Positions 15,341 to 64,000 of a stretch of DNA of 64,000 nucleotides are shown here, piece after piece. Both the position numbers and the translations under genes were made by a program. This stretch comes from Apostichopus japonicus (taxonomy: Eukaryota; Echinodermata; Holothuroidea; Aspidochirotida; Stichopodidae): positions 21,636,898 to 21,700,897 of the forward strand of contig NC_092577.1 of the NCBI RefSeq assembly GCF_037975245.1, read 5' to 3'. The first letter of the stretch is position 1; every line of letters begins with the position of its first letter. The notes beneath the pieces are model-generated. The model ran no database searches. It was not told the origin of the DNA and saw nothing but the letters and a program-made list of their open reading frames with translations.

Positions 15341-15605
15341 GATACCGAAGGTGGCTAGGCCACAGGGGAGTAACAAAAAACAAACAAAAGACAGGATAGT
15401 GAAACAACAAACGATATACGAACTGAGGAAAACACACGAACACAAGCTATCACACCCGCCTGGCGGGAAGTATAGCACAGCACAGTACAATAACAGCTGT
15501 GACAGTTGAAGAGCGAGAGCGAAAACACGTCCGCACTCCACGAAAGCCAACTGCTAAACTGAGGCCAGGTTGTACCCGAACAAGCGGTGTAGCCGCTGTT
15601 TACAG

Positions 15606-17783: not shown

Positions 17784-17968
17784 CCACTCGGGACGTCAGA
17801 ATGCCCAGTCAGGACGTGAAAAAATTACTAAGTACAGAATGCCCTATCGGGACGTGAGAATGCCCTATCGGGACGTGAGAATGCCCTATCGGGACGTGAG
17901 AATGCCCTATCGGGACGTGAAAGTGCCCAATCGGGACGTGAAGAAAATGGACAGTCGGGATGTGACAA
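17784..17968. repeat. 21-bp minisatellite
   Basis: The unit GAATGCCCTATCGGGACGTGA is repeated four times exactly or nearly so at about 17838-17921, with weaker copies on both sides (AAGTGCCCAATC, AATGCCCAGTCA). A 21-bp unit keeps frame, so an open frame reading RMPYRDV repeats crosses it. There is no sign that it is a gene. Confidence 0.85.
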
Positions 17969-35599: not shown

Positions 35600-36444
35600 T
35601 CCCGGCGCTGTTTAGCAACAGAGAACCGCATAGTAGTACTCCAAACAGGGTGGTGCGTGTCATCTGCTCCGCTCTGATTGAGTTGCCCCCTGTTGACCTG
35701 TCACAGCCGGCCCTCGTTCACAGTTCGTTGCGGGATAAGGCCTTGAATGCAACTTTTGTCCAGGGACGTCATTCTGCCGAAGTATGGCGTTCGGTGCATT
35801 CAAGGCTGAATGGTTGCAGGCTCCGTGATCTCGCATGGAGAGTTGCACACGATGCCTTGGTGACCAACCTAAAAAGATATCATTGGCGATTGGGTGATGG
35901 ACTGTGCCCTAGGACCGGCTGTGACAGCTTAGAGAGTACTGCTCATGTTTTTTGGCATTGTTCCTTTGTAGTAAACTTATGGGAGTGGTTCCAGACCTGG
36001 ACCGACCGTGTTACGGGAGACCGTTCATGGTCGGTAGGGCAGGCCTTTATTTTATATGGGGAAGACCCTCCAGTTTGTTCGGTAGCTGTGTTGCACCGCA
36101 TCATTTTTGTTTGCTCTATTGTAAAAAAACATGTTTGGCAGAATAGATGTAATTTGGTTTTTAGGGGGAAATTTGCCAGTTGGCAGGCAGCCCTGGAGGC
36201 GGTGAAGTGTGACATTCGCCTTGAAATTGAAGGCGATTTTCGCCGTTTATCTCAGGCTGCCTTTTTTGGACGCTGGTGTGCTGGGGAGGTGTTTTTCGTT
36301 TCGCTGCGTGCGGGTCGTCCTTTTGTAGGTTTCAGTGGGGGGGGGGGGGGTTGGCGTTTTGTCTCTGCAGGTCGGCGGGCGAATGTTTCGTTTGTCAGAA
36401 TGGGATGGTTTGGTAGTGCCGTTTGGCCGTGACGTTTTGTATAC
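35600..36444 (+). mobile_element. Tx1-like LINE 3' fragment (ORF2 tail) inside Copia RT
   Basis: A plus-strand frame (35596-36432) encodes the ORF2 tail nearly without interruption: VPALFSNREPHSSTPNRVV, GCDSLESTAHVFWHC (the zinc-binding motif) and AAFFGRWCAGEV. A 10-base G run lies at 36339-36350. It ends just before the Foldback-like element; the last ~40 bp of the usual 3' end are absent. Its coding state is better preserved than in the other LINE copies, suggesting a younger insertion. Confidence 0.85.
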
Positions 36445-36453
36445 CGCGGGAAG

Positions 36454-37632
36454 GGTTACATCTCTATGTTCCGACGTCTCTATGTTCCGACGTCTCTATG
36501 TTCCGACGTCTCTATGTTCCGACGTCTCTATGTTCCGACGTCTCTATGTTCCGACGTCTCTATGTTCCGACGTCTCTATGTTCCGACGTCTCTATGTTCC
36601 GACGTCTCTATGTTCCGACGTCTCTATGTTCCGACGTCTCTATGTTCCGACGTCTCTATGTTCCGACGTCTCTATGTTCCGACGTCTCTATGTTCCGACG
36701 TCTCTATGTTCCGACGTCTCTATGTTCCGACGTCTCTATGTTCCGACGTCTCTATGTTCCGACGTCTCTATGTTCCGACGTCTCTATGTTCCGACGTCTC
36801 TATGTTCCGACGTCTCTATGTTCCGACGTCTCTATGTTCCGACGTCTCTATGTTCCGACGTCTCTATGTTCCGACGTCTCTATGTTCCGACGTCTCTATG
36901 TTCCGACGTCTCTATGTTCCGACGTCTCTATGTTCCGACGTCTCTATGTTCCGACGTCTCTATGTTCCGACGTCTCTATGTTCCGACGTCTCTATGTTCC
37001 GACGTCTCTATGTTCCGACGTCTCTATGTTCCGACGTCTCTATGTTCCGACGTCTCTATGTTCCGACGTCTCTATGTTCCGACGTCTCTATGTTCCGACG
37101 TCTCTATGTTCCGACGTCTCTATGTTCCGACGTCTCTATGTTCCGACGTCTCTATGTTCCGACGTCTCTATGTTCCGACGTCTCTATGTTCCGACGTCTC
37201 TATGTTCCGACGTCTCTATGTTCCGACGTCTCTATGTTCCGACATTTTTTTTGGACTCTAATTTTGTTTACCCAAATTTTTTCGGGAGCAAAATTGTTGA
37301 CCAACATGTTTTCGGACCAACTTTTTTTGGGAGCAAAATTATTTTAGACCAATATATTTTTATGAGGAAATTTTTTTGGAGCACAATTTTTGACACCAAC
37401 ATTGTCATCATAACATTGGGTCATAACATGGTCATCCCAAAAATTGTGTGCCCAAAAAGGTAGGTCAGAAAAAATGTTGGTCCAAAAAAATTAGAGTCCC
37501 CCCAAAAAAAATTGGCGCCCAAAAAAATTAAGTCCCCGAAAAAAAATTTGCTCAGAAAAATGGGGGACCAAAAAGATTGAGTCTCCAAAAACAATTTGTC
37601 GCAACATAGAGACGTCGGAACATAGGGATGTC
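36454..37632. mobile_element. Foldback-like element with asymmetric tandem-repeat ends
   Basis: The left terminus reads GGTTACATCTCTATGTTCC; the right terminus in reverse complement reads GTGACATCCCTATGTTCC. Both run into the 16-bp unit TCTCTATGTTCCGACG, about 49 copies on the left but only one and a fraction on the right (about 37606-37625). The direct repeat ACCGCGGGAAG lies on both sides (36443-36453 and 37633-37643). The interior (37244-37605) is T-rich on the left and A-rich on the right, also roughly inverted. Tandem-repeat arms and a 9-bp-class duplication are what Drosophila FB elements show, within the MuDR/Foldback superfamily. No transposase is present. Confidence 0.75.
36461..37243. 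repeat. Perfect 16-bp tandem array, about 49 copies
   Basis: TCTCTATGTTCCGACG repeats for 783 bp with no mismatch that I can see. Because 16 is not a multiple of 3 and no frame contains a stop, all three plus frames are open and give the same 16-residue cycle in shifted phase. The minus strand contains TAG in every cycle. The long open frames (293-346 residues) are therefore not genes. Confidence 0.95.
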
Positions 37633-37643
37633 ACCGCGGGAAG

Positions 37644-37735: not shown

Positions 37736-37798
37736 ATTACTATGTATTTTCAGCAAGTGTAAACAAAAGGGGCTAGCGTTCGTTATATCTATACCAAG

Positions 37799-38152
37799 AT
37801 GTCGATGTGTCAAGCGTATGGCTGTTCGAATCGGGTTTCAAAACGCTCACAACTTGTTTTTTTCAGCATTCCTGATCCGACGAAAGAACCAGAACGATGT
37901 TGAATTTGGTTACAAAAGATTGGTACTGACAAATTTAATTTCAAAACCTACACACATACTCGAAAAACAGAGTCGTTTGTGAACAGCATTTCGAGCCTGA
38001 CTGCATAGAAAATGCACTAGCCACTAAGCTTGGATTTGCTAAGCGAAAGCAATTGAAACCAGGTTCCATTCCAACGATTTTCACCTTTAAAACAAAAATG
38101 AAAAGAGAGACCCAGCAGTGTCAGGAGAAGTGAAGAAGCACAGAGAAGACAG
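37799..38152 (+). pseudogene. THAP-domain first exon, broken
   Basis: ATG 37799 begins MSMCQAYGCSNRVSKRS, the C-x4-C start of a THAP (C2CH) zinc finger. FSIPDPTKEPERC follows, then TGA. Downstream frames supply W (WLQKIGTDKFNF) and, after a frameshift, VVCEQHFEPDC with the last Cys and His and the PTIF ending. The exon closes at a good donor, GACAG/gtgagt at 38152. THAP domains bind DNA and occur in P-element, Kolobok and some ISL2EU proteins and in host factors. It probably joined the exons at 41983-44614, making the ISL2EU element an intron insertion. Confidence 0.7.
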
Positions 38153-38466
38153 GTGAGTTTTGCTGTTGTGACGATACGACTAGCCTGAGCTAAGGGACGG
38201 TAGCTCCTGCCAGTGTTATATTACTTTACTTACTAGGTCAGGCTAGGTTGTTAGGCTAGGCCTAGCCCTGTCCTTGGGCATTTCGTTATGTAATTTCCAC
38301 ATAACACATGCACTGTGTATTATTGTTAGTTTATTACTGTATTATTATTACACCATATGTCTGCCTAGTAATTATGGAATGCCTAATAGACACAATCGGC
38401 GACTCCGAGCAGCGGTGGTCACGTGACGTATAGTGGGTACAGAATCATAACAAACCATCGCGCGAC

Positions 38467-39532
38467 ATGTGCGCAGGGGGGATTGTCGTAGTTTTACTCT
38501 CTAAGTGTAAGAATGAAAGGATCGAGCATGAACTATTTATGCATTTCACTGGGATGGCATCATATGAGAGGTTCAAGCAGTTCTTAAGGTTTGTTTGTCC
38601 AACTTTGGACAATGAAGATGTGATCTACTGGGGAAGCAAAGCGAGTAAACATCGACTGATTGATACTGAACAGCTACTTAATGAATCGTTATATGAATTT
38701 CATGATGCAGGAGATGAAGAGAAAGATTTAATTCAAAACAGTTCATATAAAATCACAGCGCAAAATGAACTTTTGTTAACCCTTATGAAGTTAAGAACCG
38801 GGGCAAAAAATCTGGACCTTGCAGAACGCTTCAACATTTCTAACAGTACAGTGTCAAACAAAATAATAACATGGATAAATCTACTGTACGTAGCACTGGG
38901 AACACTGAACATTTGGCCACACAGAGACATAATCATCGAAAAGTCACCTAAGGAATTTCAAGAAAAATATAAAGACACGGTCATAATCATAGATGCCACT
39001 GAACTAACTGTCCAAGTGCTAAGTTCACTTCAGAAACAGAGTGAGTGCTACAGCAACTATAAGCACCACACTACGCTAAAGTCATTGATTGGCGTAGACC
39101 CAATGGGTGGCGTGATGTTTGTTTCGCAACTTTTCGAAGGGCCAATAAGCGATAAAGAAATAGTAAAGCGAAGCGGGTTTCTCACTGCTTTAAAAATGAA
39201 CTTGAATGTCAAAAAATCCTGCCAGGGGACGGTATCATGGCCGATCGAGGTTTTAATATTGGAGAAGACCTTCAAGAACTTGCCTTAAAACTAAATGTTC
39301 CCCCTTCCTGAGGGAAAATGGTTGCTTCAGTGAAAAAAACATCATACGAGCTCAGAATGTGGCACAACATCGAATCCATGTAGAAAGAACCAGTGGACAA
39401 GTCAAAAGGTTCAGAATTTTCCAGTCATTGATCCATGTATCCATGTTTGGAACTATAAACCAAATTTGGACAGTAGCTTGTTTGATTTCAAACTTCCAGA
39501 ACCCTGTTATTTCTGATGGAGGAGACAAGTGA
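38467..39532 (+). pseudogene. ISL2EU DDE transposase (DDE_Tnp_4-like), frameshifted
   Basis: The frame from 38467 has a helix-turn-helix-like stretch (LRTGAKNLDLAERFNISNST) and then DTVIIIDATEL, which holds the first catalytic Asp. KHHTTLKSLIGVDPMGG follows. After a frameshift near 39220 comes MADRGFNI (second Asp); after another near 39298 comes HVERTSGQVKRF (likely Glu) and a close at TGA 39530-39532. The order and spacing fit the DDE_Tnp_4 fold shared by PIF/Harbinger and ISL2EU. The N-terminal part, normally with a THAP domain, is absent: coding starts only ~20 bp inside the terminal repeat. The enzyme would excise and insert the element in the nucleus. This copy is inactive. Confidence 0.85.
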
Positions 39533-47613: not shown

Positions 47614-50600
47614 CTGTGGAAAGGCGCAACCTGTTCAGAGGTGTTCCTGTACGGGGTGGCAACAATGACAAAAGAAAGAATAGGAAGGCCAAAGAAGTTG
47701 CTATCAATTTCTTTGCTCTATCAAGGATTCATCAGGTATGTTGTTGACATACATTTGTGCAAAACAAACAAGACTAAACTGCATATATGTGTCTATATAT
47801 TTCTTTAATAACAGTACAGTAGCTTTTATTTTATGCTTTTTAATATCTTTGTTGAAATTTTGGATCTACCTGTTATTTCTCAATATTTATTTTTGCTGTT
47901 CATAATTTTTGGAAGGCATTATCTTTATTTTTGTAGTCACTTATTATTTCTTTACTATTTTCTATTGTTTATTACTCAGTAGTTTTGGTGTTTTGACAAT
48001 TGAAAGTTTCAGTATCAATAATGCTTAGGCTCTCATACTCGAAATTGATTGCTTAATATCCACATTTAGAAACGGAATCACATCATCACATTTTCTATGA
48101 ATTTCTCAAATTTGGTGGTGTATTATTCCTTCATACTCCTTTACATCACATGCCATACTTTTTCTCAAACAGTAATTAACAAGCAAATTGAGATAAATTT
48201 AAGTAATAACCTTATACAGAGCTTTCAGCCTAGACTCCAAACTCAAAGAGTCCTTGCAGCTTCACATAAACTCTTCTGTCTGCATCATGATTGGTTTGCT
48301 AGAGTTGCTCGATAATTACTTCCATGATACGGAGCAGCTCGATATTCATAAGGGTCCGTTATTCATAATGCTCATTGTTCGTAATGATCATTGTTGATAA
48401 GGTTTGTTATCCATAATTAGAAACACGATTCTTTATTCATAAGGTTGGTTATTCATAATTGGAAAAAAGGTTCACTATACATAATTGACAAAACGGTTTG
48501 TTATTAATAATCGAAGAAAATAATCGGAAAAAAAGGTTCGTTATTCATAATTAGAAAAAAGGTCCGTTATTGATAATCGAATAAAAGGTTTGTTATTCAT
48601 AATGTAAACAAAAAGTTTGTTTTTCATAATTGGCAAAAAGGTTCGTTTTTCATAATTTGCCCACAGGAGAATTTTTTCATTACCTTTTTGGGGGAAGGGG
48701 GAAGGAGGGGAGGGTTGCTCCGCCCTGCGGACCTTATGGACACTGACCCCTTTTTATTATGAATAACGAAAAAAAAATTCTGATTATGGATAACAAAGCT
48801 TTTTGTGAAATAATGCACGTTATGAATAACGAACCTTATGAACAATGACCCTTATGAATATCGGGCGGACCCCCCATGATATACGCATGGAGGACTTCCT
48901 TGGTATAAGGAATTGCAGATTGCCATCAGTATCAAGGGCTCATGGGAGAGAACAGTTTGAGAACTTGAAATGCATAGCTGAAGGCTAAGAAAATTATCTT
49001 TTTTGGGGGCTCATACTAAAGTAATTAAATACACAAACAATACTGTGGTTCTCGTTAACTTGAAGGAGACAGTAATTTACAGAAATTTAATGATTCTCAT
49101 TGACCAGAAATGTGATGCGTAAAAGCTCATCTCACTCTTCCATGCAGCTAAAAGAGAAAGAGATGGTTGTTAGAATTGTTGACATTTGTTAGCTCATTTT
49201 GGGTAGCAATTCTTCAATTAAAAGTAAATTATGGTTCAAAATCTGCCTCAAAATATTTTTTTACAGCCAGAACCTTATACCCAATTTTCTAAGATTGATC
49301 TTTGTGACAATCGAAATCATCCACACCAAAACATTTAGCAGGTATAATTACACACAAATGTTTTCAAAACGTCAGTAAAACGTTTCGTCATTTGCTTTGA
49401 TAACGTTATTTGTGGTGTAATAAATATGTCACGAAAACGTTTTCAGGCTATTATTTCAAAACCTTTTTTCGTTAAAACATTAATATAACATTAATATCCC
49501 ATAAAAACGTTATGCCAACGTTTTTATTACACCACATTTAACGTTAAAAAAACATATTTTTAATTGTGATTTAAATGGTGCACATGACAACTTATATACT
49601 GTAGTTCTATCAACATATAGCTGTATTGTAAGTGTGTATTGGGAAATGGTTTAACATTTAACTGTTTTGTTGCTAATGCAGACGAAGATACCACCCAACT
49701 TCACACAAGCTGGCCTTGGTAATAAAAAGGTGTTGCTGTCCTCAAATGCAACCCCTCTGGAGGTGAGGACCTCATTATAGGAGTCCTTTCCAAAACTGGA
49801 AAGAGCAGGAGGATTTGAATACCTGAAAGGCAATGGCACCACAAAATGCCTGGTACCAATACCATTGCCGAGAGATGGGTACAGTGCTACCAGTTTACAT
49901 GCAGCAGCCAAGAAAGCTAGAGTTTACCTAAGGCCTATCCAAAACAATATTAACTTGGATGTTCCACATGTAAGCATAAACCATACAATTTTCAATGTTC
50001 ATGTTAATAAAATGCTCATACCATGATGCAGCAATCATTGAATGTGTACCTCACAACTTGTTCCATTTGAAAGAATACCAGATATTCTTCCTCACTTGTG
50101 TTGTGTAATAAAATTTGAAGCTATAATTTGGGTTTTTAAAATATCCTTGCATATGTGCATAATACCCGCTGGAAGCAGTACCTGTGTGAATTGCTTCATA
50201 TTAATTATTTATGCTATTGGATAGTTTAGAGCCATAACAATTAATGAACCCCTTAGGATTAGTCAAGTTGGCAATTCAAATTGTGAACTGAATGCAAAAT
50301 GATTGTGACAATCACTTGTTGCAGGGCTATCATTATTATTAAAACGTGAAAATTGTAGAATAAATCAACTTTAGTTACTCGCCCATTAACTACTTTGGGA
50401 GAAACCAAAATGTTTTCTGACGATTGCAATCTTACATGAAGTATGCTTGATATGTTTGGTCAACTTGTGTATCAAACCGAATGTCAGATGGTCATGTTAA
50501 GGTCTACAGTACGACCAAAACAGAATGTGAGTAACTCTAGTTTTGACTTTCAGAAACGTCTCACGAACCCTCTGAGATGGACCCACACAAACCCTGTTGG

Positions 50601-63750: not shown

Positions 63751-64000
63751 AAAATGTTACCGTATTTTACTGCGGTAAACTATGGTAAATGTATGGTAAA
63801 TAGGGTCAATGTGTGGTAAAATTGTGGTAAAATTAACCGCGGTACGTTTACCGCAGTTTTACCATGATATTACTTCGGTATAAGTAGGGTAAAATTTACC
63901 GCATTTTTACCATGATATTACCGCGGTATAAGTAGGGTAAAATTTACCGCAGTTTTACCATGATATTACTTCGGTATAAGTAGGGTAAAATTTACCGCAG
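63746..64000. repeat. TACCGC-rich element with 48-bp tandem array, runs off the window
   Basis: From 63746 the sequence is rich in TTACCGCGGTAAA-like words. Three copies of a 48-bp unit start at 63853, 63901 and 63949. Copies 1 and 3 agree, while copy 2 differs at a few positions (ACCGCGG for ACTTCGG). The array continues beyond the window. It may be the terminal part of another repeat-ended transposon that cut the LINE endonuclease. Confidence 0.8.

Follow-up and report, generated by a model that had tools for sequence, protein, structure and literature searches.

A non-autonomous foldback-type DNA transposon family with 16-bp repeat arms that very probably grow in place after insertion

The segment at 36454–37635 of the window (the whole 64,000-nucleotide stretch of DNA analysed here) is a 1,182-bp non-autonomous foldback-type DNA transposon. 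With both of its target-site duplications it spans 36446–37643 (Table 1). TRF reported a perfect tandem array at 36461–37243, with 48.9 copies of TCTCTATGTTCCGACG and 100% matches. The right arm consisted of two units, neither of them exact. The termini were inverted, reading GGTTACATCTCTATGTTCCGACG on the left and GGTGACATCCCTATGTTCCGACG on the minus strand at the right, and GGT opened both ends. The 352-bp stretch between the arms was first T-rich and then A-rich. As single-stranded DNA, the region 37230–37643 folded back on itself (z = -8.2; none of 100 shuffles was as good). A perfect 16-bp array, inverted termini and a T-rich/A-rich inverted interior, all described in an earlier sequence-only reading of this DNA, were confirmed. 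The foldback-type architecture proposed there was supported.

Table 1. Features of the element and its flanks in the window
Feature	Position	Strand	Remarks
Target-site duplication, left copy	36446..36453	+	GCGGGAAG
T-type terminus	36454..36460	+	GGTTACA; with the first unit, GGTTACATCTCTATGTTCCGACG
Left arm, outer domain	36461..37244	+	49 tandem 16-bp units, 48 of them exact TCTCTATGTTCCGACG; the innermost ends in A
Inner domain	37245..37596	.	Degenerate 15-16-bp units, self-inverted; left half T-rich, right half complementary and A-rich
Right arm	37597..37635	-	Two diverged units and G-type terminus (GGTGACATCC on the minus strand)
Target-site duplication, right copy	37636..37643	+	GCGGGAAG
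Paralogue of the right flank only, outside the element	15463..15551	+	80% over 91 bp

The same reading had put the flanking duplication at up to 11 bp. The perfect duplication was real, but its length was 8 bp. As both ends begin with GGT, the ACC on the right is part of the element, and the one on the left (36443–36445) is a chance match in the flank. These two ACC triplets, one closing the element and the other preceding the 8-bp target by coincidence, had made the repeat look longer.

On its left side the element was flanked by a retrotransposon's 3' end, and further copies of this retrotransposon were present in the window. Pieces of one non-LTR retrotransposon lay at 9.8–11.6, 34.4–34.7, 35.5–36.4 and 39.8–40.0 kb; a 3' end was common to three pieces, and the copy to the element's left lacked its last bases. 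The paralogue of the right flank contained the octamer GCGGGAAG once, without the element, and the likeness started exactly at that octamer. A continuous unoccupied site was not found, as the paralogue covered the right flank only and the left flank was retrotransposon.

To the right of the element lay a THAP domain piece (37939–38130, E 3e-7), together with HTH_Tnp_4 and DDE_Tnp_4 domains in a single frame (38434–39285; region 37763–39288). The frame at 37763–37903 had no Pfam hit and contained an ATG at 37799. If this ATG is a start, the element sits about 160 bp upstream of another transposon's gene. Other arrays in the window were a 21-bp repeat in five copies (17836–17941), a mixture of 16-, 26-, 42-, 53- and 66-bp periods (48362–48657), and a 48-bp repeat in 3.2 copies that ran to the window end (63847–64000).

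The genome (671.6 Mb in 35 contigs) was searched for the termini. The general terminus pattern had 409 exact matches, against none for a reversed control. T-ends (GGTTACATCTCTATGTTCCGACG) numbered 184 exact matches (85 + 99) and G-ends 213 (96 + 117). Of the G-ends, 196 were listed and 17 counted only, which gave 380 listed ends in all and made the pair counts lower bounds. Facing neighbours within 1.4 kb among these ends delimited at least 96 copies with both ends exact, 327–1,226 bp long (median 688 bp). In 95 of them one end was GGTTACATCT and the other GGTGACATCC, and the remaining one had two G-ends. This showed that the two ends are distinct and fixed. Two more T-G copies among the listed ends measured 1,541 and 1,717 bp. 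Of the 98 exact-ended pairs below 1.8 kb, 89 were read and nine left out. Flank analysis took in 90 loci, from which L035 was skipped for its variant G end (it had a perfect 8-bp duplication) and 12 of the other 89 were dropped for sharing flanks, leaving 77 copies.

Among these 77 copies with distinct flanks, 59 had a perfect 8-bp duplication, ten had one mismatch, four (L088, L100, L102 and L124) had a perfect 9-bp duplication, and four (L018, L033, L120 and L125) had neither. L018, the G-G copy, showed a 6-bp match. Counted by length, exact agreement of the two flanks occurred at 8 bp in 59 copies, at 9 bp in four and at 6 bp in two (L018 and L085), and at 5, 7, 10, 11 or 12 bp in none of the 77. 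Flanks of different copies agreed in at least seven of eight bases in only 10 of 5,852 ordered pairs. This rarity, together with the 409 terminus matches against none for the control, excluded chance. The near-constant size of the duplication across copies is as the class of foldback-type DNA transposons requires. The sequence-only reading had advised aligning flanks to fix the duplication length, and had named copies without duplication as evidence against it. The alignment gave 8 bp as the rule, and 73 copies carried an 8-bp (0–1 mismatch) or perfect 9-bp duplication. Target preference was weak, with GTTTATAC as the plurality sequence and A as the next base (in 35 of 59).

Long inverted arms of tandem repeats, also required of this class, were present. 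The inner half-arms matched as inverted repeats in all 77 copies, at a median of 71.9% over 241 bp (a figure without shuffle control, which was run for the window copy). Their period was 15–16 bp, with lag 16 the highest on both sides, and the inner units anchored on GGAC had the consensus CCAAATTTTTTCGGAC. Outer and inner units might be taken for one repeat from their common period of about 16 bp, but their sequence likeness was no better than that of shuffles (P = 0.62). The periods of the two unrelated units are both close to one and a half turns of the helix. Within the 77 interiors, the longest stop-to-stop frame had 219 codons (L083) and read through short repeat units.

Unpaired ends made up 168 of the 380 listed. 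Fourteen single-end loci (L037–L050) were read, and a mutated opposite end lay within the stretch in ten. No opposite end was present in the stretch read of L041, L043 and L046, and the stretch of L039 was too short. Such loci could conceal an autonomous copy whose ends are altered. Among the listed ends, the only facing neighbours at distances between 1.8 and 30 kb were eight G-G pairs (7.5–23.7 kb, on contigs C2, C8, C15 and C16). Two of the eight, both on C2, were examined as long elements. The whole stretch of one (L051 and L052) held short copies, with one base changed in the T end; for the other (L053 and L054) only the ends were read, and each was a short copy. A larger multi-copy repeat may carry the G-G pairs on C2.

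Ten copies (L028, L050, L073, L076, L077, L103–L106 and L117) had one common flank (TTAGCATAAT). Two of these, L076 and L077, were 99.4% alike over 1,571 bp, and a hAT domain hit lay at a distance of about 2.4 kb from them. The copies thus ride in a larger repeat that multiplies the insertion.

To look for a transposase partner, 285 domain hits (41 KDZ, 150 hAT out of 633 candidates, 11 Merlin, 45 P and 38 MULE) were placed against the 380 listed exact ends. No partner was found between exact ends: a single hit, of P type, lay between listed ends, and it was a nested insertion. None of the 38 MULE, 11 DDE_Tnp_IS1595 (Merlin), 150 scored hAT or 41 KDZ hits was inside an element with listed exact ends. 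Five domain hits were at most 15 kb from an end, on its inner side. Two MULE and two hAT hits were rejected since they lay beyond the closed short copy that owns the end, and three KDZ hits (two loci) and one hAT hit near ends were on the outer side.

The P-type hit in L072 (C17:22241169) sat between a T-end and a decayed G-end, as an autonomous copy might. The element containing it had inner ends TACAGGCACTCG and CACAGGCACTCG and was flanked on both sides by the 8-bp GTTCCGAC. This duplication is part of the array unit, which indicated that the P-type element had inserted later into the array. The locus (C17:22238000–22244500; PF21787 hit) also showed inverted ends of roughly 0.3 kb with minus-strand PIF1 helicase pieces inside.

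The ends of the partner may be altered; it may also belong to the unscored hAT candidates or have been lost. That it belongs to another superfamily with 8-bp duplications, namely P (as in Galileo), hAT, Merlin or Zisupton/KDZ, falls just short of being probable. The genome contained domain hits for each of the four. In the available parts of the sources, Merlin elements have terminal GG and 8–9 bp duplications (PMC8101967), both of which are found in the present family; Zisupton and hAT make 8-bp duplications (PMC12730594); and Galileo of the P superfamily has foldback-like arms and 7–8 bp duplications (PMC4168063). Against these stand the placements of their domains given above. Moreover, six Merlin and seven P loci contained no unit, and their only end-like sequence was one stretch in L061 with seven mismatches; no inverted ends with 7–10 bp duplications spanned the Merlin or P domain in these 13 loci of 4.3–5.9 kb.

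A transposase of the Mutator (MULE/Phantom) type, like that of Tm1 in Meloidogyne, is a serious possibility that we hold tentatively. Tm1 shares asymmetric short ends, tandem short arm units and 8–10 bp duplications with the present family, according to the available part of PMC3169594. The minority of 9-bp duplications and the MULE domains in the genome would also fit. However, 8 bp is the rule and 9 bp the exception here, the reverse of Tm1 as that part describes it, and no MULE hit was inside an element with listed exact ends. A full copy with a MuDR-type transposase, which the sequence-only reading had suggested looking for, was thus not found among these hits. In four MULE loci (L139–L142), the 7 kb that were read contained neither a related end nor a related unit, but did not extend to the ends of the MULEs themselves. 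L139 and L140, and likewise L141 and L142, were 99.3–99.4% identical over about 7 kb, almost to the edges, at different places; these pairs are either very recent large duplications or long young elements. The terminal features do not settle the superfamily, as Merlin-, Tm1- and Galileo-like traits are all present.

Arm units were counted with up to three mismatches. The commonest arm size was five units on the T side (21 of 77 copies) and three on the G side (36 of 77). The T side was the longer in 46 copies and the G side in 20, and the two were equal in 11 (sign test P = 0.002, among copies that share ancestry). Arms of at least 24 units occurred in seven of the 77 copies, on one side each. 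Four were left arms (81 units in L078, 49 in the window copy, 30 in L082 and 24 in L084) and three were right arms (55 in L079, 35 in L080 and 28 in L081). All seven copies had perfect 8-bp duplications. No copy had both arms long, which is uninformative, as about 0.16 copies would be expected from four left and three right long arms.

The interiors of L080 and L034 were 99.65% identical over 573 bp, and yet their arms had 5/35 and 5/3 units, respectively. For each of the six long-armed copies other than the window copy, the four best interior matches listed were short-armed. Some of these short-armed neighbours (L028, L073, L077, L103, L105 and L117) represented one insertion that had been multiplied, so the independent comparisons are fewer than is apparent. 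The long arm of L082 contained 27 copies of a variant, TCTCTGTGTTCCGACG, with two canonical units outside and one inside. These variant units showed that one unit had multiplied in place. The interiors of the right-expanded L079–L081 were 90.5–94.1% alike, and a shared tendency to expand within this subgroup is possible.

The window copy had only partial interior matches, the best being 91% over 168 bp. L126, L079, L112 and L081 were the first distinct copies among the matches listed, and two of these four were expanded on the other side (L079, 5/55 units; L081, 6/28). The best full-length interior match had a median identity of 94.0% in 69 other copies, and the window copy had none. The short-armed relatives of the six other expanded copies and the variant array of L082 favoured growth in place for the window copy too. 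Judged from these sequence comparisons, its left arm most likely grew in place from a few units to about 49 after landing.

It is very unlikely that the long left arm was ancestral and the right arm collapsed. Long right arms do occur elsewhere, such as the 55 units of L079, but two or three right-arm units were found in 45 of the 77 copies, and the closest listed relatives of the six expanded copies were short-armed on both sides. Expansion and collapse had both been offered in the sequence-only reading; collapse is not needed, and a recent expansion is supported by the short arms common in the family and the 48 perfect units, with no close full-length relative for dating. An ordinary minisatellite beside a chance short inverted copy, which the array by itself resembles, is refuted by the fixed ends, the duplications and the 96 paired copies, and its probability is negligible.

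The host gave a natural first comparison. Contig C35, read with table 9 (the echinoderm/flatworm mitochondrial code), carried cox1, nad4L and cox2 in that order, with Pfam matches to cox1 (517 codons, E 4e-151), nad4L (E 2e-19) and cox2 (E 6e-65). The cox1 frame contained 14 TGA, 7 AGA and 11 AAA codons. We take this gene order with this code to point to an echinoderm. Apart from C35, COX1 pieces with TGA codons were present at C29:14745–31219, either a nuclear copy or an assembly piece. TU elements of sea urchins have an outer domain of tandem units of about 15 bp, an inner domain, a middle segment and 8-bp duplications. At the level of description this architecture fits closely, and an echinoderm host is common to both. 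FB of Drosophila likewise combines a foldback architecture with arms of tandem repeats.

The closest designs are TU and Tm1. The following comparisons rest on the available parts of the papers cited. Tm1 has motifs A1 and A2 at opposite ends; like the present family, it has two different short end motifs, a variable number of short tandem units per arm and many copies without protein (PMC3169594). Its 14-bp unit differs in sequence and numbers 1–9 per arm, whereas the unit here is 16 bp and numbers up to 81. Its duplications are mostly 9 bp, whereas here they are mostly 8 bp, with 9 bp in four of 77. One Tm1 element type carries a MULE/Phantom-like transposase, whereas no partner was found here.

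Galileo of Drosophila, in the P superfamily, also has foldback-like long arms with varying tandem repeats (PMC3688188, PMC4168063), and its transposase THAP domain has binding sites within the arm repeats (PMC3688188). It differs in having a P-type transposase, duplications that are mostly 7 bp and, in the only D. willistoni copy with such repeats, a repeat length of about 140 bp. Tetris of Drosophila virilis shares the foldback architecture and tandem-repeat arms, and its repeats seeded a satellite; they are about 220 bp long, and the duplications are 8–10 bp (PMC4079207). TU elements are cited in the same paper.

The unit strings were absent from the main texts searched, and titles and abstracts on TU-like, echinoderm and foldback elements described no such family (most subscription papers lay outside this search). 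We consider the family new and its design long known; the transposon design itself is ordinary.

Going beyond the directly observed ends, duplications, copies and two-domain inverted arms, we propose that a transposase supplied in trans would recognize the two slightly different ends, GGTTACATCT and GGTGACATCC, and that insertion by staggered cuts would leave the 8-bp, sometimes 9-bp, duplication. The ends and duplications point to movement in trans of the DDE cut-and-paste type. By analogy with the arm repeats of Galileo, the 16-bp units are putative transposase binding sites. Once inserted, arms with a few perfect units would act as minisatellites and lengthen in place, as the comparison of copies supports, presumably by replication slippage or unequal exchange. 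Thus, the family very probably consists of non-autonomous cut-and-paste foldback-type transposons whose arms grow in place after insertion, with a left arm of 49 units in the window copy.

Foldback elements with tandem-repeat arms have been proposed as a source of satellite DNA, in the part of the Tetris paper available (PMC4079207). The present genome contains about a hundred insertions whose arrays were similarly short at the start, and a handful of these ran away on one side, among them one member of the near-identical sister pair with 35 and 3 units. The rate and direction of array growth can therefore be measured here. A bolder version, which we regard as improbable, places the partner outside MULE, P, hAT, Merlin and KDZ and has each copy plant a 16-bp minisatellite seed, the two arms growing in place independently of each other. 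If it were true, the family would be a genome-wide, replicated natural experiment on the birth of minisatellites.
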